Below are positions 1-58,762 of a stretch of DNA of 64,000 nt, piece by piece; position 1 is the first letter of the stretch; every line of letters starts with the position of its first letter. The translations under genes and the position numbers were made by a program. Below the pieces are notes generated by a model. It had not been told where the DNA came from, did no database searches, and saw only the letters and a list, made by a program, of their open reading frames with translations. Source of the DNA: Ananas comosus (taxonomy: Eukaryota > Streptophyta > Magnoliopsida > Poales > Bromeliaceae); NCBI RefSeq assembly GCF_001540865.1, contig NC_033628.1:9829214-9893213 (forward strand), in the 5' to 3' direction.

Positions 1-450
1 CCAGCGCTGTCCGTTGCCTCCCCCTCCGCGCCTGTCGCCTAGCCTCCCCTTCTTCTTCTTCGCCTTGTTTCCTTCTGCGCATCCAGCCCGATCCCGTTCG
101 CGCGGCCGCTCGCCACGCGACTATAGGGCTCGCTCCGCGGCACGAGGAGACGAGGGCGCTTGCGAGCGTGGAAGGAGGGTCAGATTGGGGCGACGTGGAA
201 ATGATGGGAGAGGGAGCGACGGTGAGAAGAAGCGACGTTCAGCCTTTTTCTTCGACAGAGAAAAAAAAAAGAACACGAATACGAAGAGGCAGAGAGAAAG
301 AGAAAGAGAAAAAGTAATAAGGGTTATTTTGTCAGTTTGCTGAAAAACGACCGAATCGCAAAAAACGAAAAATGTTGACCGGTTTGCAAAAGTCCAAAAT
401 AATTTTTTTGTTTGGGGGGATTTTTTTTTTTTTTTTATGCAAAAAGCCAA
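1..450. repeat. GC-rich edge plus purine/pyrimidine repeat, copy 1
   Basis: The first 240 bases are GC-rich with pyrimidine then purine bias. They pass into a run of A/G-rich DNA and then a block (about 310-440) that recurs at 925-1046, containing 'cagtttgctgaaaaa' and 'ttgcaaaagtccaaaataa'. No reading frame resembles a known protein; translations are low-complexity R/S or K/F tracts. I read this as one copy of a dispersed repeat cut by the window edge. It could also be the 5' end of a gene lying to the left, but no splice or coding signal supports that. Confidence 0.45.
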
Positions 451-536
451 AATATCTTATCATACTATAGTAAAACAAATTCTATATTTTATTTAAAATT
501 AATGTTATATTATTATATTTATAAGATTTTTATTTA

Positions 537-655
537 GCCGTTTGATTTTTGAGCCCTTATCCGTTCACTAGGCAAATGACTATCTAAAAACATAAAATTT
601 ATTTCTAGGTACTTCAAATAACTCAGAATCAAGTTATAACGAGCTGACCACGATG
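537..655. mobile_element. Foldback element, single-arm fragment
   Basis: This matches the right arm of the complete foldback copies at 4662-5209 and 7161-7700: 'gccgttt', then 'ttttgagccc', 'actaggcaaatga', 'aaaatttatttctaggtactt'. The partner arm is missing. A second fragment of the family, the centre only, lies at 1048-1107 ('ttctacaccgttaaacttg'). Confidence 0.6.
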
Positions 656-722
656 CGAACTCGCAACATCAAAAACACTAGTCAACCACGAGCCTCCGTC
701 TTCATATAGCATAAGCCCGGCC

Positions 723-1046
723 TTAGGGGGATCGGAGGCGAGGAAGGTGGGGGCGCCGGCGGCGACGCCGCTCTGTCTTCGCTGCTCTCTGGGAAGAGAA
801 AGAAAAAAAAGAACGAGAGAAAAAAGAGAAAAGAAAAAGGTATAAGGGCACCTCCGCTCCGTCTTCGCCGCTCTCTGGAAAGAAAAAGAAAAAAGAACGA
901 GAGAAAAGAGAAAGAGGAAAGAGAAAAAGGTATAAGGGTATTTTGGTCAGTTTGCTGAAAAAGCGGACCGAATCTGCAAAAGCTAAAAAGATGGCCCGAT
1001 TTTGCAAAAGCCCAAAATAAGTGGATTTTTTATGCAAATTGGCCAA
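723..1046. repeat. Purine-rich repeat, copy 2, with internal duplication
   Basis: This is a second copy of the block seen at 310-440. A module beginning 'cgctctgtcttcgctgctctctgg' (split here: 'cgctctgtcttcg', 'ctgctctctgg') followed by an A/G-rich tract and 'aaaaggtataagggca' is present twice in tandem (about 768-848 and 856-938). It ends with 'cagtttgctgaaaaa' and 'gattttgcaaaagcccaaaa'. No gene recognised. Confidence 0.6.
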
Positions 1047-1240
1047 GAATTTTCTATCAAAATTTCACATGATTTGGATATTTCTACACCGTTAAACTTG
1101 CAAACGGCTATATATATATTATTATAATTAAATCTTAAATAAATTTAAGCTGTAAAATTAATTTTATGTTGTCCATGTGGAAGTTATATTAGATATTATA
1201 AGATCTACAGAATATTTTACATAAATAGATAAATTACTGA

Positions 1241-1767
1241 GTCCGGCTACTATATTTTTATGAGTACGATCGTCGTCGTACTCATAAGTTAATTTTTATG
1301 ATAGAGCTTCCGAATCAACGATTCACACAGTTAAACGTTATCTAGAGCATTTAAAATGTCTAAAAATTAAATTTTATAATTTTTCGATATTATTTACCTT
1401 ACGATCAAAAGGTCATAAAATTGACAATTTTTAATGATTGGTATGAAAAATTTGCTAGTTTAACAATATAAAAAAATCAGAATCAGTTGAATTTTTGATA
1501 GAAAATTTTATTCATTACATAGATAAAGATCAATAACTCCAATCTTAAATTGAAGGATCTGATTATCCATTTTTAAGACGCCGTTCAATTTTGACCGTTC
1601 ATTTTATACCCGCTTGATGAACTTTATTATGATTTCAAAAAATTACAAAATTTATTTTTTAGAAGTTTCAAATACTCTACATCATATTTAACGGAGTGGA
1701 TCGTCGATTCGGAAGCTCCATCATTGAAAACAACTTATGAGTACGAAGGGCGCTTTACTCATAAATT
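1241..1767. mobile_element. Foldback element, copy with TTATGAGTACGA terminal hairpins
   Basis: The two halves are inverted copies of each other (roughly 1256-1420 against 1600-1765). Both carry a 'gaagctc'/'gagcttc' block next to a 'cgattc' motif, then 'aaattttataatttttcg' and 'gatcaaaaggtc'-type sequence. The left terminus is itself a perfect hairpin at 1258-1287 (12-bp stem TTATGAGTACGA, loop tcgtcg). The right terminus holds a 9-bp stem TTATGAGTA/TACTCATAA. No coding capacity. This is a non-autonomous foldback or long-TIR MITE; superfamily unknown. Confidence 0.7.
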
Positions 1768-2929
1768 ATTTAGTGTGTTTCTCTAAATTTTGTCGCGACT
1801 GAATGTTTTGCTTAAACAAAATAATTGATTTATTATGTTGCCATGTCTAAATATTATTAGGGACTATTTGACTGATCATAAATGTAATGTGGAGTATATA
1901 TATATATATATTTAAAAATACAATAGTTACAACGGCATGCATCATATTTGATTGGATATAATAAAAAGTGTCGGACTATAAATAATTTGTTCGATTGCAT
2001 GCAATTAAAAAGTCTATTTTTAAAATTTTATCACTTTATATATAATGGCGATGAGAAAAAAAAATTATTTATAAAGTGATTAGGAAGACAAGCTTATCTA
2101 AGCTTATCTATTTAAAATTAATTTATTAAACTGCTACAGTTGAAACTACAATCAATTTGAGCGTACTTTCAACTACTGCAGTTAGATCATTTTATGTAAT
2201 TCTGACCGTAACAGATGGATTCAAATAAGTGTGTTAAAGTAAACACCAAATTTACATATGCATACCCGTATACTCTTATAAATGCAGGACAGCTACAAAA
2301 TACATACAATCATATAACCCCTTCAGATGATTTACCCTATATTAAACACTACTATGTGAATAAAGTGAATAATTGATTATACTCATATAAGATATTTAGT
2401 TGACTCTCTACTGTCCAGCGCGTTACTCTGATAAAAAATATAGAATTATTTTTATATTTAAAACTTTTGTGGAAATAATTGTATAACAAAACATTTTAAG
2501 GGACTAATTAAAAAAATAAAAAAAATGAAAAATAAAAGGTTTCTTCTTCCTGGAAAACTAGGTGATGTGATACAACTCGACTTGGCCGACAGGGGCGAAG
2601 TCATGAAACCGACTACACCAATCGCTCTCAGGTGACGCGTCACCCTTTCACTATTTCAACCGGGAAATGTCCTCGGATATGTCATTTATTCACATAGGAG
2701 AATCCAGGTGAGCCATAAATTTTCAATATTTTAAAATTTTAATGACTTTTAAAAATATTATTTGGTCAAGAATTACTGATTGACATCAGCGTGGTATCAT
2801 AAATATTTAATTATTGGTCACGGCCTGCTTTTGAGAGGCCATTCATTACTGTGTCTGCGACTTGATTAAGTGAGTATTCTAAATTCAATCACTTGTTGGA
2901 TCCAATGTGCTAGCTTAAAATGCTATAGG
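1768..2929. other. AT-rich intergenic DNA, no gene seen
   Basis: This stretch contains short TA runs (about 1900) and no reading frame resembling a protein. A 61-codon minus-strand frame at 2458-2643 is low-complexity and not supported. Confidence 0.5.
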
Positions 2930-4661: not shown

Positions 4662-5209
4662 TAGCTTAGCTACTATACTTTTAGGAGGACGGAGGCCTTC
4701 GTCCTTCTAAGTCGTTTTAGATGATAGGGCTCCCGAGTTTATCATTGGAATCGTTAAAATTGATTTAGAGTATTTATAATATCTAGAAATTAAATTTTAT
4801 AAATTTTAAAATTCGTTATTAAGTTCATTGAAAAGTCGAAAAATGAACGATAAAAAATGAATAATCTTGTGACAATAAATGTTAGACTTTTTCAAGTTAT
4901 TATCGGAGTTATCAAATATTATCTAAATAGTATAAAAAATTTTCTATCAAAAATTCAAACTGTTTGGATTGTTCTACACCGTTAAACAAGCAAACGGCTT
5001 ATATAGGCCGTAAAAAACTATCGATTTCGTGATCCTTTGATCACTGTGTAAATAATTTTTAAAATTTATAAAAGTTTAGTTTTTAGACAATTTAAATATT
5101 CTAGTTCAACTTTGACGGTTCCGACAATCGATTCGAAATTCCTATTATCTAAAACAACTTAGAAGGATGAAAGTCTCCGTCCTTCTAAAAGAATAGTAAC
5201 TGAATTCTA
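4662..5209. mobile_element. Foldback element, copy with GGAGGACG terminal hairpins
   Basis: A complete copy. The outer ends are 'tagctactatacttttag' on the left and its inverse near 5186-5200 on the right. The left end contains the hairpin TTAGGAGGACG...CGTCCTTCTAA and the right end TTAGAAGGATG...CGTCCTTCTAA. The arms (about 200 bp each) are inverted copies around a centre with 'ttctacaccgttaaacaag'. Same core as the copies at 1241, 7161, 23108 and 28505. No open frame. Confidence 0.75.
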
Positions 5210-6113: not shown

Positions 6114-6652
6114 TTAGGGGTGTAATCGGTTCGGTTTGGTTCTGGCAAACCGAATCAAATTTTCCCGTTTGGAAATATTTACAATCGAACCAAACCCTTT
6201 TATACTAAAAATCGATCTAAAACAAATCTAATTAATTCGGTTTGGTTCTGTTTGATTTGATTTTGCAATTAATTTTTCAATTTTTTTATTTTTTTACAAA
6301 TTAATTTATAATTTAAGATTCAAAATTGAATTGTTATGAAATCACAAAAAAATTAAAAATTAACATTGAATTTGAAAAAGGTGTTGATATATGATCAAGA
6401 TTTGATCATAAATGTAAAACTTTAATAAATAATTTAAATAAAAGTGTAAAATTTATTACACATTCAGTTTTTTGATTTGGCTCGGTTCAGTTAAAAAATG
6501 TGTTCGAGCCAAGCCAAAACGAAAAAAATCAAAACTTTAATAAGTTTTAAAACTCAACCAAATCGAATCGAAAATTATATAAACCGAATCAGATAGTCTT
6601 ATTTAATTTGATTCGATTTGATTTTCGATTTGGGGCCAAACTGTGCACACCC
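6114..6652. mobile_element. Mutator-type non-autonomous element rich in CGGTTTGG
   Basis: Flanks carry a 9-bp target duplication: tagccatga (6105-6113) and tagccatgg (6653-6661), one mismatch. A 9-bp duplication is the hallmark of Mutator-like elements. Ends are 'ttaggggtgtaatcgg' and 'gtgcacaccc'. The interior is filled with degenerate cggtttggtt/aaccgaatcg repeats at both ends in opposite orientation. No transposase. Confidence 0.7.
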
Positions 6653-6675
6653 TAGCCATGGTGTAGGGCGACCTC

Positions 6676-6925
6676 TTAGGCTTCGTTTGGGATTGCGGTT
6701 TGGGATTGCGGGGAGATTGCGTTACGTGCGGTGAGAAACGACGATGGAAAGATACCATGTTTGTTTCCGTACGTAATATTGCGTTCCGCATATCGCGATG
6801 AGTCAGTTACGATATATTTTCTGCGGTCCCACCGGAGAACACAGAAATATATCCCTATATGCTTTTTTCTCAACTCCATTTTATCTAATAGCGTTAGATA
6901 GATCTCAATACCAAACTAAACCTTA
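6676..6925. mobile_element. Tourist/PIF-Harbinger-like MITE, copy 1
   Basis: Terminal repeats GGCTTCGTTTGG and CCAAACTAAACC, flanked by TTA on both sides (6676-6678, 6923-6925), the 3-bp target typical of PIF/Harbinger MITEs. The interior 'ggagaacacagaaatat' recurs in the copy at 60078-60255. Confidence 0.75.
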
Positions 6926-7160
6926 GTCTTTGGTACATTGCATCGTTATCCAAAGCATATGAAAAAGCTTATATTTTGAGGTCCATTTTGTCACCACGAT
7001 CTATTACAAGTTTCAACAATCAAGATTCCAAAGGAGTAAATATATAAAAGGATAATGTTTGCTCTACTTCCAAAGTGCACCCTTATCAAAGTGTCTCCAT
7101 TCTATTCAATTCCAAGGGTAAAATAGTTAGTTTATGAAAATAAACACTATATAATAAAAA
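6926..7160. other. AT-rich intergenic DNA, no gene seen
   Basis: Nothing recognised between the Harbinger-like MITE and the next foldback element. Confidence 0.5.
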
Positions 7161-7700
7161 GTGAGGCTAATATGTTTCTAGAAACACAAAGTTTTCTGTA
7201 CTTTCACATCATTTTCGATGTTGGGACTTTGAAATTAACGATCGACTCCGTTATATTTGATCGAGGGTATTTGAAGTACCTAAAAAATAGATTTTGCGGT
7301 TTTTCGATATCATTTGTCTAGTGATCGAAGGGGCTCAAAATCAATGGCTGAAAATAAAAATCTTACCAAATGTGATGATATGACATTAAAATTTTAAATC
7401 AAAAATATTGATTTTGTTTTATATAGTATAAAAAATATTTTATCAAAATTTCACGTGATTTGAATGTTTCTATATCGTTAAATTTGTAAACGGCTCACCA
7501 TGGCCATTAAAATTATTAATTTTGAGCCCCTTCAATTACTAGGCAAATGATGTCAAAAAATTATAAAATTTATTTTCTAGATACTTTAAGTACTCTAGAT
7601 CAAGTCTAATAGAGCCGATTGTCGATTCAAAAGTTCTAACATACAAAATGACTTGGAAACTCGGAGGATTCCATACTTTCAGAAGCATACAAGCCTTACT
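7161..7700. mobile_element. Foldback element, copy with GTGAGGCTAATATG ends
   Basis: The left end 'gtgaggctaatatgtttcta' and the reverse complement of the right end 'gtaaggcttgtatgcttctg' match. The arms (about 190 bp) are inverted copies: 'gatcgaaggggctcaaaat' on the left against 'attttgagccccttcaat' on the right. The centre carries 'atgtttctatatcgttaaat'. Terminal hairpins are weak in this copy. No open frame. Confidence 0.75.
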
Positions 7701-7824
7701 CATATAATATAATGAGTTATATTTTGTTGGATCAATTTGTTCGATAATATGGTATTAGAATGCTAAGTTCTCTATGTTCGAAAAAGATTTTCACCCTATG
7801 TATTCCTGAACACTGAGCCGGGAA

Positions 7825-9189: not shown

Positions 9190-9648
9190 AAAAACAATAG
9201 GCTCTGCACCAAGGTTGTACTACAAATATCCTAAACCCTGGTTTGCATAGAATCCACTATAACAAAAAGTTACTCCTTGGATGCATACAACACAAGAAGG
9301 AAATATATAGATGAGCCTATTTTGGGTTCTTTTATTAGAAGCAGTGCATGTTTTAATCATTGATAACAATACCAAATATTAAATAACAAATTTTAGACAT
9401 CTAGGCCTACAATACATAGATTTCATGATGCAGCCACTCAAAGAACCATCACATCCAATCCAGCTACCCTCCCCAGCCAGTACCAGGCCAAAAAAAAAGA
9501 AAGTGGCATTACCATGTGTGCCATCAATGCGCATTCTTGCTCTACAGCTCACTCCCAGCCAAAGTTTCCTATTCCACCATCAAAAATCCAACACTGGTCA
9601 AAAAAAAACCCAAAAAAAAGAAAGAAAGAAAAACCCAACAGTTGAATC

Positions 9649-9655
9649 TATAAAT
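9649..9655 (+). promoter_or_regulatory. TATA box of the subtilase gene
   Basis: TATAAAT lies 45 bp before the chosen start codon at 9700. Transcription starting about 30 bp downstream (about 9680) would leave a short leader and exclude the upstream in-frame ATG at 9676. Confidence 0.55.
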
Positions 9656-9699
9656 TGGCTCTCACCTTACTGCAAATGCATCATGTTTCCCTCTCCACA

Positions 9700-11952
9700 A
9701 TGAACACTATCAAGCTAGTAAATCACTTTCCCCTCCTTATTTTCTTCTTGTTCTTCATTTTCACTACCACCATTGCCTCTTCCTCTTCAGAAAAAGAAAC
9801 ATACATAGTTCATCTGCGATCACCCCCACCAGATATTGGCTTGTTGAATATTGACGATTGGCACAGATCATTCCTGCCGCAAGACGAGCCGCGGCTGATC
9901 TGCTCTTACACCGAAGTCTTCAGCGGCTTCGCCGCGAAGCTCACGGAGGAAGAAGTCAGCATCATACAGCAGAAAGACGCGCTCATTCGCGTCTACCGTG
10001 ACAGGCTTCTTCCGCTCGCGACGACCCATTCCCCGGAATTCCTCGGCCTGCGCGTCGGGAACGGCTTCTGGAACGTCTCCGGCCTCGGAAAAGGCGTCAT
10101 CATCGGAGTTCTCGATACCGGCCTACTGCCCACGCATCCCTCGTTCGGCGACGACGGCGTCCCCCCGCCGCCGCGCCGGTGGAAAGGCGTTTGCTATTTT
10201 GGCGGCGCGGGCTGCAACAACAAGATAATCGGGGCGCGTGCGATCGGAAGCGCCGCCGCGAACGCCACCGCGCCGCCGGTCGACGACGCGGGCCACGGCA
10301 CTCACACTGCTAGCACAGCTGCTGGGAACTTTGTGGCCGACGCAAGTGTTCGAGGAAATGCCAATGGGACCGCGGCGGGGATCGCCCCGCACGCGCACTT
10401 GGCGATTTACAAGGTGTGCAGCCGGAGCCGGTGCTCGATGGTTGATATTCTGGCCGGGCTGGACGCCGCCGTTAAGGACGGCGTCGACGTCGTCTCGCTC
10501 TCGCTCGGCGGCGGCTCCGCGCCGTTCGAGTACGACCCGATCGCAATTGCCGCCTTCAAGGCGATGGAGAAGGGGATCTTCGTGAGCTGCGCGGCCGGCA
10601 ACGAAGGGCCGGCGCCGAGCTCTGTCTCCAACGCCGCCCCTTGGGTGCTCACCGTGGCTGCCGGCACGATGGATAGAGCCATCAGGGCCAAAGTTAGGCT
10701 CGGCGACGGGCGAGAATTCGACGGCGAATCGCTTTTCCAGTCTCCGAACTCCACTTCCACTCTGCTTCCGCTAATTTACCCTGCAACCAACAACACTCCT
10801 GCAGATTGTAGCTTTCTTGACAATTTCGATATCGAAGGAAAGATCGTGCTGTGTCAAAGCCCCGGATTGACCGGGAGGATCGACGCGGGCATCGGAGTAT
10901 TAGCATTCGGCGGCGCGGGCATGATCCTGATGAATCCGAAGCCTGACGGATACACCACTTTCGCCGATGCTCACGTCCTCCCCGCGTCGCATGTGAGCTA
11001 CGCAGCAGGTTCGGAGATCATCTCCTACGTCAATTCGACTAGCGCCCCGACGGCGACGATCGCCTTCGAGGGGACGGTGCTCGGATCGTCCCCTGCTCCG
11101 ACGGTTGCGTTCTTCTCTTCGAGAGGGCCCGGAAAAGCTAGCCCGGGTATTATAAAGCCGGATGTCACCGGTCCCGGTATGAACATCTTAGCGGCGTGGG
11201 CAGCGCCGGCGGAAACGAGATCTACTATGGCAGTTTCTACTGAACGAGCTTTCAATATGGTCTCAGGCACTTCGATGTCGACGCCGCATCTCAGTGGCGT
11301 CGCCGCGCTTATAAAGAGCGTGCACCCGCATTGGTCCCCTGCCGCAATCAAGTCGGCGATCATGACGACCTCTGATTTCGTCGACCATAGTGGTGAACCC
11401 ATAAAGAACGAGCAGTACCAAAAGGCGAGCTTCTTTGCCATGGGTGCAGGTTATGTGAACCCGTCAAGAGCCGTCGATCCAGGCCTTGTTTACGATCTCG
11501 GCGTAAATGATTACATAGCATATCTTTGTGGGCTAGGGCTAGGAGACGCCGGAGTTTCCGCCGTAGCTCACCGCAACATCAGGTGTTCGACGATAAGAAA
11601 TGTCACTGAAGCAGAGTTGAACTACCCATCAATACTAGTAAATCCGCAGGATAAACCGATTACGGTGAAGCGGACGGTGACGAACGTGGGGAAAGCGAGT
11701 TCGACGTATGTAGCTGCTGTGGAAGTGCCCGAGGAGGTGGTGGTGGTGAGAGTGCGGCCGCGAATTCTGCACTTCTCGAAAGCGAATGAGAAGAAGAGCT
11801 TCGCGGTGACGGTGCAGCGGAAGGGTGGGAGCAAGAATGGTGTTGAAGGGAATTTGAAGTGGGTTTCTGGAGAACATGTTGTGAGGAGTCCAATTCTCAT
11901 CCCTGCTAAAAGTTCTGCTTCCTTTGCTACCGCTTTTGCTGTAAATAGTTAA
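9700..11952 (+). CDS. Subtilisin-like serine protease (plant subtilase, S8)
   Basis: Intronless, 750 residues. An N-terminal signal peptide (about residues 5-28, rich in L/I/F) is followed by an I9 inhibitor-like propeptide starting ETYIVHLRSP. The peptidase S8 domain shows the full catalytic set: Asp139 in GVLDTG, His199 in DAGHGTHTAS, Asn301 in CAAGNEGP and Ser525 in SGTSMSTPHLSG. A protease-associated insert lies about 350-460 and a fibronectin-III-like C-terminal domain follows ('TVKRTVTNVGKASSTYVA'). Length and order are normal for the family, so a secreted or apoplastic endopeptidase is expected. I chose ATG 9700 because it has A at -3 and directly starts the signal peptide; ATG 9676 is in frame but too close to the TATA box. 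The substrate cannot be told from sequence. The coding region is much more GC-rich than its flanks. Confidence 0.93.
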   Translation: MNTIKLVNHFPLLIFFLFFIFTTTIASSSSEKETYIVHLRSPPPDIGLLNIDDWHRSFLPQDEPRLICSYTEVFSGFAAKLTEEEVSIIQQKDALIRVYRDRLLPLATTHSPEFLGLRVGNGFWNVSGLGKGVIIGVLDTGLLPTHPSFGDDGVPPPPRRWKGVCYFGGAGCNNKIIGARAIGSAAANATAPPVDDAGHGTHTASTAAGNFVADASVRGNANGTAAGIAPHAHLAIYKVCSRSRCSMVDILAGLDAAVKDGVDVVSLSLGGGSAPFEYDPIAIAAFKAMEKGIFVSCAAGNEGPAPSSVSNAAPWVLTVAAGTMDRAIRAKVRLGDGREFDGESLFQSPNSTSTLLPLIYPATNNTPADCSFLDNFDIEGKIVLCQSPGLTGRIDAGIGVLAFGGAGMILMNPKPDGYTTFADAHVLPASHVSYAAGSEIISYVNSTSAPTATIAFEGTVLGSSPAPTVAFFSSRGPGKASPGIIKPDVTGPGMNILAAWAAPAETRSTMAVSTERAFNMVSGTSMSTPHLSGVAALIKSVHPHWSPAAIKSAIMTTSDFVDHSGEPIKNEQYQKASFFAMGAGYVNPSRAVDPGLVYDLGVNDYIAYLCGLGLGDAGVSAVAHRNIRCSTIRNVTEAELNYPSILVNPQDKPITVKRTVTNVGKASSTYVAAVEVPEEVVVVRVRPRILHFSKANEKKSFAVTVQRKGGSKNGVEGNLKWVSGEHVVRSPILIPAKSSASFATAFAVNS

Positions 11953-20849: not shown

Positions 20850-23107
20850 ATTTTTTTTTAATATTAAAAAAATAATAAAGAGTGATGAAAATAATGTGAA
20901 AACATCAGTCGTCGAGATCGATATAAAATTTGTGCTAAAATATTTAGGACTTAGACTATGTAGATCTAGCTATTCAATATTTCAAAATTTTAATATTATT
21001 GTTATTTTTTTAATTTATTTGATTTGAATCGGTGGACGCAATTTTTACTTTAAATTTAAGGTAATTACTTAATTTAAATAAATTTATAATTATGAGAATT
21101 GTATAAACTATATCAACTGAATATATAAAAAACAAACAAATTGTATTTAAAATTTAAAATTAAAATATTATCGACTGACTCAAATTAAATAAATTTAAAA
21201 ATTAGATAAAAAATTTTATAAAATAAATATCTATTTATATTCGAATGATCTATAGTTCAGATAAATTTCGTACGCATCTTTCTAAAAGTTAGTTGACGTC
21301 GCCCCGTTGATATGTTGAGATTGCAAGGGCACCTTCAACTATTGAGTTCTTAATTAAAGGTTAAAATTTATAGACACCTTCTAAAGTTTAACATATATTA
21401 CGTTGATCCCACATTTTTTTTATTAACACTTTTTCTACTTTTTAACTATTTAGTTTAGTTCTTTCTGTTGACAATTTTAGAGATTACGTTAGAATCAAAA
21501 TATATGTCCAAAAGAGATGCACGAAATTAAGAATTATTTTAGTCAAAAAAAAAAAAATCGTATGCATCTCTGGTAAGCATTTGATTTCAATAAAATCTCT
21601 AAATTACGAACGAAAGGACGTAAAGCAAACAATTGGTAAATAGAGAGAGCATCAACCAAAGAAAAGCAGTGAGAGGTTAAATTTTAAAATGAGTTAAAAT
21701 TTAAGAGGTGTCTATATATTTTAACCTACTTTAAAACTACTTTATAATAAAAAAATAAATTAATTGATGAGTCCAAGTCACATAAAATGGCCACGACTAA
21801 TAATATTGTATCAGTTAATAAAGTTTTAACTGAGCACGTAACCACTGTCTAATTTACTAAATAAAAAAATTTAAAATAAAAATAGGAGATAATTACGAAA
21901 CGTTATTCCATATCCGATTTGCTGAAAAATTACACGAAGACCCTCTCAACTAAAGCCCGTGTTAAAATAAATTCCTTTCCTTTTACGTTTTCTTATTCCA
22001 CTACTATTTTTTTTTGACTTTTTATTTTTTTTAGTTAGTAAAAGTTTATTGAATTAAATATTTATCATTTAGCTAATAAATTATAATATAAAATTTAATT
22101 ATAATAATATAAAAAAATTAAAGTAAAAATAATAATGAATTAAAATTTAAGAATCGAAATATTCGCATCACATATTTGGAGGATCAGAAATGTGATTTAA
22201 CCTGACACAAACAGGTTCGTCGGTGTGAAAGGGTACAAATATGGAACGACATGGAACGACTTGCGAAAGTGTCCACACCTATCACCTATGGACGGACCTA
22301 TGTTTTAATTGATAGCTTTTTTGTGGGGATTGTTTTCTCCGCAATTTTGGACTAAGCAGCCTATCACTGATTTTGTATTTTTATTCGCAAAGTCTATGGC
22401 GTACACCTTTCCCGACGTAGCTGAACGAGTCCTTTTCATAGTCTCTGTCATGTTGCTAGCATGCATTGAATGTTCAGCTTTATAAGAATTAAAATCGTAC
22501 ATTCTGTCATAATTTTGATGTCTAAACTTGAATTGTAGACTGGATTCTTACTTGTAGTAAGAATGTTAAAGCGCGTTCGTTCATTAAAAATGTGTTCAGA
22601 TATATCCTAATTGTTAGATTTACTGTATCGTTATAGATCAAGTTAAATAGATCGACTATTTTTTTATAGATTGCTTTGAATAAATCACATACACTGCATC
22701 CAATATTAGAAACATGTATGTACCTTTTATGTAGTTTATGTAGAACAGGAGAGTAACAACAATCCTGATCCTACCCTATATTCATAGAAAATGCTTCTTA
22801 TATACACAAAATAGAAGTGTAGATTTTACACCTCCCATTTTAGGTTTGATAAAAATGTAAATAATTTTTAGTAAGAATAAAAAGAAATTGATGTGAGAAG
22901 TAGAATATTAATATCTTGAAATAAAGTAGATGTAAGATGTATACTACATTTTGAGATGTACCGATAGCATTACTCCTATTCAAATGCGTAAAGTTTATGC
23001 CCATAAATTTTTTATTATTCTTATTAGGTTGGATTATATTTTACTATACTATATTTTACTGTTAATTTTATTTGCCATATTATATATATATAGAGAGAGA
23101 GAGAAAG
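20850..23107. other. AT-rich intergenic DNA with MITE remnants
   Basis: About 21330-21715 is flanked by inverted 'gttaaaatttatagacacctt' and 'aaggtgtctatatattttaac'-like ends, which suggests a decayed MITE. 21935-21970 matches one end of the element at 5715-6066. No gene is supported; a 65-codon minus frame at 22305-22502 has no recognisable motif. Confidence 0.4.
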
Positions 23108-23528
23108 AGTTAGGCTGGTATACTATCGGTAGCACGGAGCCCTCCGTGCTACCAAGTTGTTTTCAATGATACGGCTTCCAAATCGATGATCGGCTCCGTT
23201 AGACTTGATCTACACTATTGAAAGTATTTGTAAACTAAATTTTATAATTTTTCGGCATCATTTACCTATCAAACGAGTAGTCTAAAAATAAACGGCTGAA
23301 AATAAAAATCTCGTAAAAAATGATGATAAAAGACTTGAATTTAAGATCAGAGATACTGATCTTATCCTAAATAGTGAAAAAAATTTTCTATAAAAATTTT
23401 ATCAGATTTGAATTGTTTTATACCGTTAAATTCACAAACATATCATATTTACCATTAAAATTGTCAATTTTGAGACCTTTTGATCACTAGTGAAATGATG
23501 CTGAAAAATTATGAAATTTAGTTTCCAA
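23108..23528. mobile_element. Foldback element, truncated at an assembly join
   Basis: The left end 'taggctggtatactatc' is followed by a perfect 12-bp hairpin GGTAGCACGGAG/CTCCGTGCTACC (about 23129-23154). The family core follows, with 'cttgatctacac' and 'ttttataccgttaaattc'. The right arm stops at N 23529, so the outer right end is missing. Confidence 0.7.
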
Positions 23529-28298: not shown

Positions 28299-28504
28299 CT
28301 GTTGCAAAGAATTAGAAACATTATTTTTTTTGTTGTTGTTTATTTTGAATTAAAATAATATAAAATTTATCAGAATTATCACTTATCCTGATCTAATCTT
28401 TTGAAAATTTCATTTTACTACTTAATTTTATAATTCAAATGAATTGAGTCATTTAATAATTTTTTCACTTTAAAATATAAAATACCGTTTATCTATACAG
28501 ATTG

Positions 28505-29043
28505 AGTAGAGCTACTATACTATTATTATGAGTATAGAGGTTTTCGTACTAATAAAATATTTTCGATGATGAAAATTTTAAATTGACGATCCATACCATT
28601 AAATATGATCTAAAACATTTGAAGTATATAGAAATCGAATTTTGTAATTTTTCTAATATATAATAAAGCTCATCGAGCTGTTTTAAATGAACAGTCAAAA
28701 ACGAGAGATCTTCTAAAAATAAGGAATAGTGTTTTTAAATTCAAGATTGCAGTTCTCAATCCTGATCTATATAATGAATATAATTTTTTATAAAAATTTA
28801 GTCGATTTCGATTTTTCTACACTGTTAACTCGAAAATGCTTTATACCGACCATTAAAAATGCCAATTTTGAAGCACTTCGATCGTAAACATATGTGTCAA
28901 AAAATTATGAAATTTGATTTCTAAAATATTTAAGTATTCTAAATTATATTTAACGATATGAATCGTCGATTCAGAAGCTCTATCATAGAACATGACTTAT
29001 GAGTACAAAGACGATGATACTTATAATAGTATATATAGTAGCT
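28505..29043. mobile_element. Foldback element upstream of GST-A
   Basis: Ends 'agagctactatactattatt' and the inverse 'atactattataagt...agtagct' match. Terminal hairpins use TTATGAGTA/TACTTATAA. The centre 'ttttctacactgttaactcg' and arm motif 'aagcacttcgatcgtaaac' belong to the same family as the copy at 1241. It lies where exon 1 of GST-A is missing. Confidence 0.7.
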
Positions 29044-29045
29044 AT

Positions 29046-31404
29046 CCTTAATTCATATATTTTATGTAACACATGAAATCATAATATTAATAAAGTAAAC
29101 GATACACCTAGATGATTCTAAATTTTGTATCGACAAAATTATAAAACAATTCAAATTAAATAAATTGAAAGATTAGACATCAAAATTAAAATTTTTAAAA
29201 AATTAGATAGTGGTCCCTAAAATATTGAGAAGCCCAAAGCTTTTTTTTTTTTTTTTTTCCTTCTGCCACCACCTGCCGGCCCAGTTAATTGATACCTCTT
29301 TCTTTTTTAAGAAAATAGTATCTAGTGAAGACATATAGGCGCATATTTTTCCTTGCTCCCTCACATTACAGAAGCAAAAATCACACAACCTATTTTTACC
29401 TCTAAAAGTAAAAGATAAATTATACTTTTGGTCCTCAAACTTTCAGATTTGAGATTTGTAATAGTTTGATTCCCAAAATTTAATTTATTATTTAAATTTT
29501 TAAAATTACTATAATTAATTTTTATCGTCTAATTTAGTTGAATACTAATATTTTGTTGATTTAGTAATGATGTGAACACTATCACATTAGTAACTTATTA
29601 TTATTCAATCAATTAAATTAAACTGTAGAATTTAAATATAATAATTTAAAATTAATATAAAACTATAATAAATTAAAGGTGGAGAACAAAAGTTTCATGC
29701 ACCTCAAAGATTAAGGACAACAAATATGCAATGTACCCAAAAATTTAAATATTCTACTGTACACCATGCGTAGAGGGATGCAGTGTATATTTACACTAAT
29801 TTCATGCAAAATGCCGCCGCAGTTATCTCTTATTAAGTTAACTCGGGTTAAACGTGAGTTAAATATCCACCACAGTTAAAAAAAAATTAAAATACCAATT
29901 TTCTCCTTAACTTAAGGACAAACAAAAAATGTTGGTGACGGTAGAGGAATATATTGGAAAAGACCAAAAGTTAAAATACTTTTTGTGCTCCTAACTTTAA
30001 GAGCAAATAAGAAAGTCAGTAATGGTGGAAGGGTATATTTGAAAAGACAAAATAGTAATTTTACAGAAATAACAGAGTTAAATAACAGATTTTAACTTTA
30101 GAGATATATTAGAAATAGGTTGGAAAATAGAAAGAATATTTTCAATATTAGCCTTCTAAAAGGAGTAAATCGAAAAATCGGAAACTTTTTAGGAGTATAT
30201 AAACAATTGCCCTAAGTTAAAGTATCGTACATCGACTCGAGTGGAACAAATTTAGAAAATTAGATAATAAAATTAAAATTATAAAAAGTTTAGATTCGTC
30301 TGTAACGATTCCACCAGCTAGTAATAATAATTCAATGAATCTAAAATATTTAAATTTAATTATTATTATTATTAGAACGAATATCTCTTATATTTCAAAT
30401 GAGAATTCTTTTTTCATCCAATATGAAAATACGAAACTGTTGGGACGGTAGTCAAATTCAAACAATTCATAATTCAGATAATTCGCATTACATTTCTATA
30501 AAAATAAAAATAATAGTAATAAAATAAAGNAAATAAATATAAAAGAATGGCCCGAAGTCCGGGCTGAGGGGCCGTGCTGGGCCGGAGTCCAAGGATAACG
30601 GCCCAGCACGACACGGCCCAAATTGTGGCCGGGCCGTGCTGGGCTGGCCTCGGGCCCGTTCTGGTCCGACTTAATGTGGGGCGTGTCGGCCCGGTACAGT
30701 CCACGTTACACCCCTAGTTGCCGGTGAGTTTTCGTCTGTGAAGCATTTTTTACATAATTGCTCAAATTAAAAAACTCATCCTATTTGATTTTGAAATTTT
30801 AATTTATTTTAATATTTTATTCAATTTAAATAGATAATTATAGTTAAGTAAAATTTAATTGATTAAATAATAGTTTATTACTAATATGACAGTAATACAG
30901 ATGATATAAAAATAACTAATGTGTGATATAAATACTATTTTAGAGACACGATATTGTAAAACTTAATTGTAAGAATTTTAAAAGTTTAAACTAAAAATTA
31001 ATAAATTTCTGGATCAACTGCATTAGCTATCACTAGAATTCAGAAGGGACAAAGTCAATAGTGCAAAATATTACACCTCTATCAAATCAATCATGATAAA
31101 TAACAGTTGTTTCATTTTATTTAACACCTCTATCAAATCGATCACAATAAATTCATCACTTGCTAAGTGAAATATAATTGGCATATGTTCCACATTTTAA
31201 TATCTTCCTTTTGAATGTTCTGGTTTCTTTATACAGTAAGAAACTAACAAAGCAATACAAAAATGGATGATACACATGGGTACTTAACTATTCTAAAGCT
31301 GATCATTAAACTTGTTAATTCTTTTTATTCAACACACTCCCTTTATTCTTGACAAATTGTCTTGCTATAGTATTTGAATACTAGATCAGTTATCCCAGGC
31401 ACTA
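29046..31404. other. Intergenic DNA with MITE half and GC-rich element
   Basis: 29830-30215 is an inverted partial copy of the MITE at 54485-54988 (ends 'aggagtatataaacaattgccc'). 30540-30718 is a GC-rich island of degenerate 'ggcccgtgctgggcc' repeats ending 'gttacacccctag', the inverse of the 'taggggtgtaa' end of the elements at 6114 and 24441. N at 30530 interrupts it. No gene. Confidence 0.5.
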
Positions 31405-36561: not shown

Positions 36562-36786
36562 AGAGTGGGCTACCATATTATTATGAGTATAGACTCATTT
36601 GTATTCATATATTTTCAGTCGTTAAATGAAGGATTGTGCGGTTAGGATGATATGATTCCCTAGGATTGAGTAAGTGATTGGTTGAATAGTATAATATAAC
36701 GGGTAGAAATGATCAAGAGGATAAATTTGATGGTCGAAAATTTATGAGTATCTAGGGGTTTATACTCATAAGAGTATAGTAGCCAA
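36562..36786. mobile_element. Short foldback-like MITE
   Basis: Left 'gggctaccatattattatg' and the inverse of right 'ataagagtatagtagcc' match. The right end contains a hairpin ATGAGTATctaggggttTATACTCAT. It shares terminal style with the copy at 28505 but not the long arms. Confidence 0.6.
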
Positions 36787-37441
36787 ATTTTTAAATTTCA
36801 CAACAAATTAATTAGATTCTTTTTATCTCATATTAATATATTTAGGTGTCTTTAAATGTTGAAATAAGTTGTACAATTATAATTTATTCCGTATAAAATT
36901 TTTTTTATAATATTGGACGTTAAGAATTTAATTTTTATTTTATAAAGGATACGTTTTTAATTTTGCAGAATAATAGATTTTATCTACAAAGTAATTTATT
37001 TTATTTTAAAAAATAACTTGAAATCCAAAAGAGATATGTTGAATAAATGTTTATGTATTTAAATTGGGAATAATAGTTTACAAGAAAAATATTTTAGAGA
37101 CTGTAGTTTATTAGTTTACTAGAACAATATTTTAAACACTGTAGCTTTCTGCATCCTGTTTTACCTAAAATGTTGAAAATGTTATAGGAAAACAAAATTG
37201 ATTTGCACGACTTTCAAAGACCACTAATCACATGAAATGAGTCAAGTGTATTAGCCTACTTTCCCATCCGGGATCTGCTTTAATTATTTCGTCATTGCTG
37301 ATGATCTGTGCTAAGTTCTCATTGATTTGTTCATCAGGAGTAAAATGTTTTCTATTGATTTTTTTTTTAAAATTTTTATCTTTTAAAAGAGATTGAGAGA
37401 ACTTCTCAATTGAATTCTCTGCTTCCCGAAGAAAATAATTA

Positions 37442-46671: not shown

Positions 46672-47091
46672 TAGGAAAAACTTCAAAAACTCTCTACGTG
46701 GTTTCGCACTTTTTCATTTTAGTACCCTGTAGTTTAAAATGTATCAAGTTAGTACTTTGTGGTTTTGCACTTTTTCACTTTAGTACTCTGTGGTTTAAAG
46801 TGTATCAAGTTAGTACTCTGTGGTTTTATTTTTATATCCAGTTAGCATAGTTAGTTAATTCACGAATTATTCGCAAATTATTCGCGAATTTTTGATATTC
46901 CGAATAAAACGTCCGTTTTTGAATTTTTGGAAAAAATTCGAAAAAAATCGCGTTTTATTGGATAAAAGTAATTATTCGCGAATTAAACGGGTTCGCGAAT
47001 AATTCGGCTCAAAAAAACGTCGCCGTTGCTGCGACTGCGATGCTGTCGCGGGCCTCGTGCATGGCCCAAAACAGAAAAGAGTTCGCCTCTC

Positions 47092-47122
<31 letters not shown>

Positions 47123-48296
47123 CTCTGAAATCGCCCTCTCCCAATCTCCCAAACTCCCACCCCCACCCCCATCCCCACCCCTCCCAAAAAAGGGTTTGCC
47201 CTAACTTCTCACCCCTGCGGCGGTGCGGCCCTGCCACCGACCCGTGCGGCGGTCGCGGTCCCTTCCCCTCCCCCTCTTCCCTTCCGGCTGCTCGCCGAAC
47301 GCAATCGGAAGCCCTCCTCTTCAGAAATCGAAGATCGAGTTCTTCCCTCTTCAGAAATCGAAACCCTCCTCGTCGCCTCTTCCTCTTCCGCTTCCGCTAT
47401 CCAACGATATATAGATCAGTAATAAGGTGGTTCTTTACAAACCAAGTACGATTTGAGTTTTCATTTTTTAAAGCAAAAGTTGGAAGCTTTTAGTCCATCT
47501 GATGGATACTTTTTTAGACACAAATGGCTCGAGTGCTTAAATTGAATGTGTCCATTCTCTGTTATGCACCTTAAATTGTTAAGAACTTAAGACCCAAACA
47601 TAGAGCTAAATAATGTTAATTAACCTAGGGACCATGCCTACTTTAGACTTTAGAATTTAGGAACTCTTGTATTTTACATTTAAATATGCACTATCTTGAT
47701 CTCTTATTTGGTTAATTATTTATTTTTTTTAGGCATAATATAGTTTATTATTTTTTTATTTAATTTTGTAGCTCTTTATTCTTATATTCTTAAAAAATAT
47801 GAATATTTATGCTAATAGCATAAATTTTGAGAGGAAAAAAATTTAATTTAATAGTCAAATTTTTGATCCCGAATTTTTAATTGGTGAACGTATAATATCC
47901 GTATAAATCACGTATCCGAATAATTGACTAATCCGTTTTTTAGCCGATTTTTTCAACGAATTTAAAAATTAGAAGACGAATTTTATCCGAATTATACCCG
48001 TACCGAATTTTTGCCGAATCCGAATTAACTAACTATGCCAGTTAGTACTCTGTGGTTTTATTTTTATATTAAGTTAGTACCCTATGGTTTTATTTTTCTC
48101 CGAATGAAATATTAAACCACAGGGTACTAAAATGAGAAAGTGCGAAACCATAGGGTACTAACTTGATACACTTTAAACCACAGGGTATTAAAGTGAGAAA
48201 GTGGGAAACCACAGGGCACTAATTTGATACACTTTAAACCACAGGATATTAAAGTGAGAAAAAGTAAAATCACAAGAGGGTTTTTGAAGTTTTCCC
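46672..48296. mobile_element. Long TIR element with internal sub-repeats, split by hAT
   Basis: Left 'ggaaaaacttcaaaaactc' and the inverse of right 'tttttgaagttttcccaaaa' match. The roughly 170-bp ends contain repeated 'tttagtaccctgtagtttaaa'/'gtatcaagttagtac' modules, inverted on the right. Without the inserted hAT element (46846-48037) it is about 430 bp. No coding capacity. Confidence 0.7.
46838..48045. mobile_element. hAT-type non-autonomous element with 5'UTR-like cargo
   Basis: Perfect 8-bp target duplication CCAGTTAG (46838-46845, 48038-48045) and perfect 16-bp TIRs CATAGTTAGTTAATTC/GAATTAACTAACTATG. An 8-bp duplication is diagnostic for hAT. Body 1,192 bp, nested inside the element at 46672-48296. 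Subterminal 'gaattattcgcgaattt' motifs recur in inverted form. The interior (about 47020-47420) is a GC- and CT-rich block resembling a plant promoter/5'UTR, with a duplicated 'cttcagaaatcgaa'. No transposase seen. Confidence 0.85.
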
Positions 48297-56342: not shown

Positions 56343-58173
56343 CTCGAGGGGTTCCAGTACATACAAAATGTTTATTACACTACTCGCTCCAGTGAGTACC
56401 CAGACAACAACGATATGTACATAAAAAATTTCAAAACTACCTGTGGGAGATACTCCTCTAGCACAGCAACAAGTCTGGAAAGGATCTAGCTCACAACTCC
56501 CTTTCCACTATCAGAATCTACGACAGCAGCAGCCACAGAAGAAGGCTCTGTAAAAGGGGTCAACAACTGGGTGTGAGAACTACTACAAAAAGAAGTAATT
56601 CTCAATGGGTACCGCTACCGACCTCAACGGCTTACCCACTAAGTCTACAGAAAGTATGTAGAAAGATAGTAAAGGAAGCTGGTAAAATTCTACAGCTATA
56701 TGCCACTATACTATTGCTAACCAACACTAACTATCTGTAGATATAAGCAAGATGCAACCTTTGATCCAATCTCAGTAGGAATTATGAACGCACCCATCCC
56801 GCCTGTCGAAGCTACACTAACCACCACCACGCTGGGTTGTTGGTGGAGAGCAAGTCCAACCAGGACACTACGACATCAACGCAAAAGCACTAAGCCCGAC
56901 TCCGGAGTGGCACTCGTGGGCGCTACCCATCTGAGTATGCAAGCGTGTCTCTGCCGAGTTCAATCAGGCTCTCATGGACTATAATCAAAACAACTAGGTC
57001 TAACTGGTCTAACAACCAACATTCACGTGCCCTCGGCACAATCTGATGAAAACACAGAAATCTCGATCCACCGTCAACCGCGACGACACCCGACAGTCCG
57101 AAACATTCTACACCCAACTATAAAATAAGCTCGGCATCCCAGCACGAGTGTAAACTCATCCTAAACTAATCTGGATATCTAAGACGTACAAACTACAGCG
57201 ATACAAACTAACCACAGCTCCTAAAGCTAAATGTGGTAGTTTTCAGAAAATGACGTGTAGGATCTATAGTTTTCTTCTAAATCAATTCTAAGTTTAACAT
57301 GTAAAACAAATCTAGCATTTAAGCTCCAATTCAGATTTCATTAAAAGCAATGCAAATCGGCGAATCGAGCTACTAACATGATACCACACATGAAGTTTAC
57401 ATGTTGACAACATCTAGGCTTAGGAGAAAATCCGACGATTTCGGTAAACTTCAACCCACCTCGAAACGCTCGTCCAACAACGGTGAGAAGTCGAAAGGAG
57501 AGAAATCTCGCTCTCGCCCGGCCTCCAACGGCACAACCGCGACGCCTACACGCTCGAACGGCTTTCCGGCGGAATGTCGACGTCGATCCGAGCTCAAACC
57601 GTGACCTCCATCAAGCACACGACTCCAACCTAGAGAGAGAGAGGAAGTAGCAACCAGAGGCTCACTCTCTGCCTATCTACACGTATAAAAAGCGGTGGGG
57701 ATAAGGGTGATATAAACGATGCATCAAATGACCAAAAGGCCCCTCACCTACTCAAAAATCCAACTAGAGTACCGGTACCAGGTTTGGTTATCAGTACTCG
57801 GCCTCTCAGTCCGCAACCTCGCACACTGGGTATCGGTACCAGCCCGATGCCGTACCGATACTCGAGCTCGATACTGATAGTCGTCCGATACAATACTGGT
57901 ACTCAGCATCAAATTGGCTCAACCCGAGAGCAGTCTGTTCTGTAATACACTCGGGTACCGGTACTCCCCTATATGGTACTACTACACAACGCTAAAAACT
58001 TGCACTTTGCAGATTTTAATATCAAAACTCTGCTCTCCCGTCGCACTGAGTCCATTTTGCGTCCATTTCGTGCCAAAACGACTCTGACTTGTCCTGACAC
58101 TCTCTAGATGTGTTGACAAGCCTCAGATGCTAAAATCACACGGGCAACCAAACACCAGAGATACTACAGGCAG
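56149..58173. mobile_element. Solo LTR, about 2.0 kb, copy 2
   Basis: Body 56154-58168 starts TGTCACGCCCCG and ends ATACTACA, with a perfect 5-bp duplication GGCAG on both sides. It is inserted in the gag/protease junction of the copia element. Homologous to 38400-40290. Contains a (TA)n run at 56297-56338 and scattered GGTACC-type palindromes near 57770-57970. No coding region. Confidence 0.85.
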
Positions 58174-58762
58174 AGTCAGAGATGATCGATTTTGATGCGC
58201 TATATGCAGCGACCGGAGGTGCTAAAATTTCGGACGACCCGTGGGTGCTCAATTTGGCGTGTTCCTTCCATGTCTGCCCGGAGAAGAAGTCTTTTGCCAC
58301 CTATAAAGCGATCAAGGGTGGAAAGGCTCTGATGGGGAACGGGACGGCGTGCAAAGTTTTAGGAGTCGGCACGATGAAGATCCGAATGCACGATGGGGTC
58401 GTGAGGACACTGATAGGTGTGCGACACGTTCCTACATTGAAGCGAAATTTGATCTCGTTAAACATGTTGGACTCAAAGAGTTGCGATATTTCGGCTTCAA
58501 ATAGAGCTATGAGGGTTCAAAAGCGAAATCGGGTCGTGTGCGAGGCGAACAAGCGCAGAAACTTATACGTTTTGAACGGAAGCACAGTCAGAACAGAAAC
58601 GAAGATGGTTTGGGTTCCAAAAGTTCGCGGAGGTGCAGTAGCTCGAGACGGAGCTGCGGATGTAGTGACAACGAGCGCAGGAAACAAGCTCAAGGTGGAG
58701 CTTGCATGGTGAGCTCGACGTAGCGGTTGAAGACTACAAATCTAATCAAGGTGGAGATTAAA

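Follow-up and report, generated by a model that had tools for sequence, protein, structure and literature searches.

Foldback elements of the window

The window, as the whole 64-kb stretch of pineapple DNA analysed here is called, contains five related foldback copies at about 1239-1784, 4662-5207, 7159-7701, 23107-23528 and 28504-29049, all of them named in the original prediction, together with a 229-bp element (36562-36790) and two degraded pieces (443-717 and 1025-1129) that had been overlooked. These elements and their palindromes are as follows:

443..717, no strand, degraded fragment of the Ac-mMITE-1-like family (nhmmer, E 6e-16)
1025..1129, no strand, internal fragment of the Ac-mMITE-1-like family (nhmmer, E 3e-15)
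1239..1784, no strand, Ac-mMITE-1-like element, GAGTA subfamily (nhmmer, end alignment, core tree)
1258..1287, plus strand, left palindrome of the 1239 element, 12/12 Watson-Crick pairs (pairing test)
1735..1764, minus strand, right palindrome of the 1239 element, 9/12 pairs (pairing test)
4662..5207, no strand, Ac-mMITE-1-like element, GAGGA clade, (TA)n on both sides; the element from which the analysis started
4681..4710, plus strand, left palindrome of the 4662 element
5159..5188, minus strand, right palindrome of the 4662 element
7159..7701, no strand, Ac-mMITE-1-like element, AAGCA clade, palindromes degraded
23107..23528, no strand, Ac-mMITE-1-like element, TAGCA word in the stem, only the left part present because the sequence breaks off at N 23529
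23126..23155, plus strand, palindrome of the 23107 element, 11/12 pairs
28504..29049, no strand, Ac-mMITE-1-like element, GAGTA subfamily, weak palindromes
36562..36790, no strand, 229-bp Ac-mMITE-2-like element, GAGTA word
36742..36771, minus strand, right palindrome of the 36562 element, 10/12 pairs

The 7159 element has a 9/10 target duplication at its predicted ends, and (TA)n followed by (GA)n precedes the 23107 element. The ends of the 36562 element are as in the five Ac-mMITE-1-like copies; its core has no match to theirs. Elsewhere in the window lie a subtilase frame at 9646-11949 (100% identity to a pineapple protein across 98% of length), an inverted repeat at 46698-48273 with 129-bp arms, 83% complementary and 1.3 kb apart, and a retrotransposon polyprotein fragment (Pol_BBD) at 58134-58709. 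Rfam and tRNA scans of the window returned nothing.

In lengths, repeats and flanks the foldback elements fit the published description of Ac-mMITE-1, a type of Mutator-like MITE of pineapple. Lin, Sharma and Yu (2021, PMC8449440) give 510-570 bp with terminal repeats of 140-180 bp for Ac-mMITE-1 and 210-270 bp with terminal repeats of 40-70 bp for Ac-mMITE-2; the two families have a distal repeat in common, target (TA)n, possess GA...TC termini in most copies and show 9/10-bp duplications in 1,435 copies. The window elements come from the same host as the published families, match them in length (543-546 and 229 bp) and in having long terminal repeats in one family and short ones in the other, and likewise sit in (TA)n, end in GA...TC, are flanked by 9-10 bp duplications and resemble each other across families in the distal repeat. 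The finding is thus real but belongs to a MITE family already described in print, whereas the original prediction had known of no named MITE family with this design. The 2021 study found no autonomous element and predicts the secondary structure of Ac-mMITE elements in a figure; the terms 'hairpin', 'stem-loop', 'foldback', 'palindrom' and 'cruciform' are absent from its main text.

The genomic sample comprised 20 stretches of 10 kb and the window, loci of less than 9 kb (L001-L008) being left out of the scan. Out of 145 end matches 118 were kept, 28 of them unpaired, which gave 45 pairs; after one mispaired element of 677 bp was dropped, 39 Ac-mMITE-1-like and 5 Ac-mMITE-2-like elements were left. 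Since the 20 stretches all surround matches to the 4662 element, they over-represent its subfamily. Four complete window copies measure 543-546 bp, and 39 of the 44 genomic end pairs span 504-585 bp, three of the 39 falling outside 510-570 bp. Ungapped inverted arms of 118 bp (at 1276) and 186 bp (at 7160) are near the published range. The 36562 element, with inverted arms of 49 bp, agrees with Ac-mMITE-2, as do four further paired elements of 226-239 bp. A flanking TA run of at least 8 is present on both sides of 18, one side of 13 and neither side of 13 of the 44 elements of both kinds, and 6 of the 13 without such a flank have a 9- or 10-bp duplication (at most 1 mismatch, offsets up to 3 bp). 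Within the Mutator-like range of 8-11 bp, duplications of exactly 10 bp are found at L011_4763, L013_4744, L019_4790, L026_4776 and L027_4729, and one of exactly 9 bp at L019_9387; some of the exact 9-10 bp duplications sit in AT-rich sequence.

A covarying palindrome inside the ends

At each end the palindrome spans bp 20-49, except at 28504-29049, where it sits a few bases deeper. Some 19 bp of conserved motif (GAGTnnGGCTACTATAC-like) precede it on the terminal side, which makes the hairpin subterminal. The original prediction had placed hairpins outermost in four copies: the hairpins are real at 1239, 4662 and 23107 and weaker at 28504, but their position is not the outermost one. Of 12 possible Watson-Crick pairs, both palindromes of 1239 and 4662 and the left one of 23107 form 9-12 (P from shuffles no higher than 0.00082), and those of 28504 form 8 and 9 (P 0.0066 and 0.00099). 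Pairing at 7159 is not significant, with 6/12 at each end (P 0.080 and 0.067).

The nine Ac-mMITE-1 ends present in the window offer 3,060 dyads within their terminal 200 columns, and among these the palindrome came top both by pairing (0.789 versus a mean of 0.30 and a best of 0.678 elsewhere) and by double change (0.161 versus a mean of 0.015 and a best of 0.083). Among 11 window ends, 85.6% of stem cells are paired, as against at most 48.5% in slid controls, with 16 two-sided changes against 7.5 in shuffles; no excess is seen in pairs with a two-sided change (6 versus 4.7) or in pair types (15 versus 13.1). For the larger set, nine of the 118 ends were dropped for gaps, N or lack of an exact place and one for an indel. 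In the remaining 108 ends (100 distinct), 85.8% of 1,400 stem cells are paired (at most 48.1% when slid) and two-sided cell changes number 161 against 69 shuffled (SD 6.4), counts that kinship among copies inflates, and two of the five covariation measures, pairs changed (9 versus 9.1) and pair types (31 versus 29.7), are no higher than in shuffles. Stem pairing reaches about 12-14 pairs in this set, pairs 11 and 14 being unpaired in 30 and 31 of the 100 distinct ends. Ten chosen terminal 62-mers, folded as DNA, give z of -2.2 to -6.5. Throughout the 382-Mb assembly the stem pattern occurs at 4,803 places (119 for a reversed control), and the stem pattern with outer motif gives 4,091 matches over both strands (94 for the control), G being fixed at N1 of the stem word in both patterns. 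Neither viral contigs nor bacterial or archaeal genomes yielded a match to the hairpin patterns.

Because the palindrome variants align without gaps and have nearly invariant letters in common (A6, A9, T22 and T25), they are substitution variants of one hairpin and not swapped units. The hairpins are subfamily-specific and the two ends of an element agree, as had been predicted: only 4 of 120 permuted pairings of the window elements are as good. The likeness extends to the rest of the end (inner 36 bp 2/120, outer 15 bp 8/120), and with the four Ac-mMITE-1 copies alone the hairpin and the inner 36 bp both reach 2/24 permutations. A coupling of the hairpin between ends beyond that of the rest of the repeat was rejected, since the inner 36 bp are coupled as well.

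The stem arm is a word of the form N1-A-G-N2-A-Y, two inverted copies of which make up the palindrome, and N2 is mostly G, T or C according to subfamily. A third, looser inverted copy of the word stands directly outside the palindrome, and the variable stem letter recurs there. At N2 both stem arms have the same letter in 95 of 117 ends (37 shuffled), and the outer copy agrees with each stem arm in 83 and 84 (about 33 shuffled); the triples are GGG in 30 ends, TTT in 23, CCC in 21 and mixed in 43. The outer copy follows the stem only partly at N1 (47/117 and 48/117, shuffled 33) and at chance level at letter 6 (42/117 and 27/117, shuffled 38 and 27). Such a pattern, in which N2 is followed but its neighbours are not, is expected for base-specific contacts rather than for the copying of a tract. 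The exception is found in the TAGCA ends, five of six of which possess a stem C and an outer T. In the first 100 genomic matches listed, which come from the start of contig C1 only and all have the N1 = G fixed by the search patterns, all three N2 letters agree in 92 (79 T, 13 C; 56 expected by independence), and among the listed matches the stem arms agree at N2 in 48 of 50 pairs.

The words GAGTA, GAGCA, AAGCA and TAGCA are found in both Ac-mMITE-1-like and Ac-mMITE-2-like ends, with no extra likeness of outer motif or loop between the families, as judged from 18 Ac-mMITE-2-like ends picked by eye from the inner flank, five tandem L022 ends being left out. These five copies, at L022:3906-4677, lie about 177 bp apart in one orientation. 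A satellite-like array was also noted beside an element at L020:2266-3159, where the outermost 30 positions of the end model match nine times at an exact spacing of 108 bp. The possibility that the word is simply an internal repeat was rejected by mean counts in element interiors, of own word versus the same word in the other types: 1.77 versus 0.57 and 1.44 for G-type elements, 0.86 versus 1.14 and 1.89 for C-type, and 2.67 versus 3.45 and 4.57 for T-type.

Subfamily history and a gene-bearing element

Apart from single decayed copies, palindrome type follows the tree of the 215-bp centre alone. All eight GAGTA elements fall together, as do three GAGCA, three AAGCA and one AAGTA, while GAGGA groups with its close variants. 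Four copies with other words lie among GAGGA: L025_4753, which is decayed and scored as GAGCA, one GAGAA and two AAGGA. As read on the core tree, N2 changed only about three times within Ac-mMITE-1. In the five window copies, core likeness and hairpin likeness correlate with rho 0.49 (Mantel test, 10/120), which is not significant by itself. The proposal that hairpins are swapped as units independently of the core is not supported by the centre tree of this sample, and the terminal variation comes close to being explained by substitution along the same tree as the core.

Five subfamilies have at least three elements. In four of them the 5' and 3' arm consensuses are 86-93% alike, the exception being GGAT at 77%, and consensuses of different subfamilies are 69-88% alike, a range that touches the former. 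Between types, like and unlike arms are equally similar (0.676/0.677, 0.700/0.698 and 0.718/0.713). Since arms are mostly more alike within than between subfamilies and like arms are no closer across types, we infer that both arms were probably made alike together, as whole arms, at the origin of a subfamily. The predicted joint change of both ends thereby survives in a weaker form. Such whole-arm renewal could largely account for the agreement of the word between both ends, but it cannot explain why the three copies at a single end agree.

The evidence on continual copying between the two ends of an element differs among groups. In GAGTA the same end of different elements is more alike than the two ends of one element, both in inner arms (0.832 versus 0.771) and in loops (0.58 versus 0.44); judged from these likenesses, GAGTA arms drift apart after the subfamily's origin. 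The GGA group points weakly the same way (0.806 versus 0.789, loops 0.73 versus 0.69). The mixed C group, of six elements, shows the opposite: there the greatest likeness is that between both ends of a single element (0.842 versus 0.803), as expected if several small subfamilies are mixed or if arms are still being made alike. The GGAT subfamily (L009_6511, L009_7778 and L016_3691) possesses an odd stem arm at both ends; its 3' arm is 88% and its 5' arm 75% like GAGGA.

PF10551 has at least 150 matches in the genome. Six of these MULE loci were fetched, and one, L032, has GAGTA-type ends and a 10-bp duplication. This element (L032:24-5313) is 5,290 bp long, with end matches at 24 and 5313 (E 3.5e-8 and 9.4e-9), a perfect duplication, ATAGAAATAC, and a 761-aa open frame that comprises FAR1, MULE and SWIM domains. 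Its left 424 bp are 85-89% identical to seven of eight GAGTA MITEs, 73% to the eighth and about 68-74% to other types, and its right 121 bp are about 85% identical to GAGTA MITEs; the middle 4,742 bp are absent from the compared MITEs. At its two borders this middle piece has no direct repeat of more than 6 bp, and the palindromes of L032 are partly decayed (9/12 and 7/12 pairs). On the tree L032 lies inside the GAGTA clade (0.999). It is a candidate partner of the MITEs, a gene-bearing element of the kind that the 2021 study reports not finding, and supplies a protein to test. Its nesting within the GAGTA MITEs suits a MITE that gained a gene better than an ancestor of the MITEs: either a MITE may have taken up a gene-bearing piece, which is the more parsimonious reading of the tree, or the gene-bearing form may be old and the tree misleading. 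Loci L030, L031, L033 and L035 were rejected as partners for want of a good end match within the 7-9 kb fetched, and L034 has only weak end matches, two of which lie back to back at 6641-6733. The MULE frames of L033 and L034 are 56% identical to that of L032. A possible longer relative was seen at L028:8557-9258, where inverted GAGTA-type ends with Ac-mMITE-2-like inner flanks stand 702 bp apart.

Readings of the stem word

We consider it somewhat probable that the stem word is a half-site of the mobilising MULE transposase, with N2 and N1 as the letters of subfamily specificity and the same word at both ends. An end would then consist of the conserved terminal motif and, at bp 20-49, two inverted half-sites read by the transposase, the third and looser copy lying outside them. 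In favour of this reading are the first rank of the palindrome among the dyads, the paired cells and two-sided changes in the 108 ends, the excess of the stem pattern over its control in the genome, the agreement of the outer copy at N2, the words that two families have in common without further likeness, and L032 with its ends, duplication and gene. Renewal of whole terminal-repeat arms at the founding of a subfamily would put the same word at both ends, and an element whose ends were read by different proteins would not move, so that ends would keep one word. Against this half-site reading stand the TAGCA ends, which break the rule of the outer copy, the 12-14 stem pairs, which exceed the need of a 6-bp half-site, the two covariation measures no higher than in shuffles, the inflation of end counts by kinship, the small number of N2 changes on the core tree, and the nested position of L032. 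A bolder extension, tentative and on balance doubtful, is that of a recognition code, in which the pair (N1, N2) in the three inverted half-sites of each end would name the transposase, the set would switch together at subfamily birth, unrelated MITE families would converge on the same words, and a MITE could be re-armed by uptake of a MULE gene, as in L032. The wider questions are by what means MITEs follow a transposase that changes and what makes the two ends of an element change together. Pineapple offers thousands of copies with a compact site at a fixed place, in which site, specificity and arm renewal are directly testable.

Two alternatives start from the stem itself. The structure may matter, the ends being extruded as hairpins or cruciforms or folded single-stranded and recognised by a protein through their shape, as Y1 enzymes do with REP hairpins; hairpin-recognising transposition of this sort, which the original prediction had raised, is unlikely. 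Stems covarying along much of 12-14 pairs, the folding of the chosen 62-mers and the TAGCA ends, in which both stem arms changed together and the outer copy did not, speak for it. However, N2 covaries in the third copy too, which is no part of the hairpin, the nearly invariant A6, A9, T22 and T25 suggest that sequence is read as well as shape, and duplications of 9-10 bp fit double-strand cut and paste. Alternatively the palindrome may have no function. Template switching during replication is a known process that perfects imperfect palindromes, so that one change becomes two, and the symmetric double changes are indeed frequent; this is nevertheless quite unlikely, as pairs 11 and 14 are so often left unpaired, the outer copy follows N2 but hardly its neighbours, and correction within a hairpin explains neither the agreement of two ends nor the same words in two families.

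The earlier reading, in which elements exchange whole hairpins or keep copying one of their ends from the other, would account for words that are subfamily-specific and the same at both ends, for the C group, and for the three GGAT elements, whose odd stem arm is present at both ends while the inner arms are only 77% alike. It is improbable all the same, because hairpin type agrees with the tree built from the centre alone, GAGTA elements retain loops and inner arms that are specific to each end, and words are common to two families whose outer motifs and loops show no such likeness. That the hairpins are precursors of small RNAs or silencing signals is very improbable, since stems of 12-14 bp are short for Dicer substrates. 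In favour of this reading, 24-nt siRNAs map to the family, but the reads were counted per element and not per hairpin (PMC8449440).

Several known systems resemble the pineapple elements in part. SaTar of guayule and rice, Micron, and MuTAnT of Medicago are microsatellite-targeted non-autonomous MULEs (PMC5907723, PMC4486113) and, like Ac-mMITEs, are small and Mutator-like, insert into (TA)n and, at other sites, show duplications of 9-10 bp; MuTAnT folds back as a whole and has a putative autonomous partner like Jittery. They differ in that the available text of both papers reports no covarying subterminal palindrome. Muta1, an active MULE of Aedes aegypti, has terminal repeats that start with a 10-bp imperfect palindromic motif (PMC5225508), so that palindromic MULE ends as such have a precedent; that motif is terminal, is followed by tandem subrepeats and comes with no subfamily covariation in the available description. 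In maize Mutator, the binding site of MURA is a conserved terminal-repeat motif some 32 bp long (cited in PMC3310237), comparable in length to the 30-bp pineapple palindrome, and the available part of that source describes no palindromic subfamily-switching site. A literature search by hairpin strings gave no title on such elements, and one on MITEs and MULEs with terminal hairpins no title or abstract start of this design. As far as these searches tell, and with the main text of PMC8449440 compared, the covarying site with its third copy and the gene-bearing element appear to be new. A further likeness is with bacterial REPINs and their RAYT transposases, which also have paired inverted palindromes with compensatory changes, in flavours matched to the transposases (PMC3116915, PMC2817692). 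RAYTs are bacterial Y1 enzymes with a proposed single-strand movement; the host here is a plant, and the sole gene found between such ends encodes a MULE transposase.
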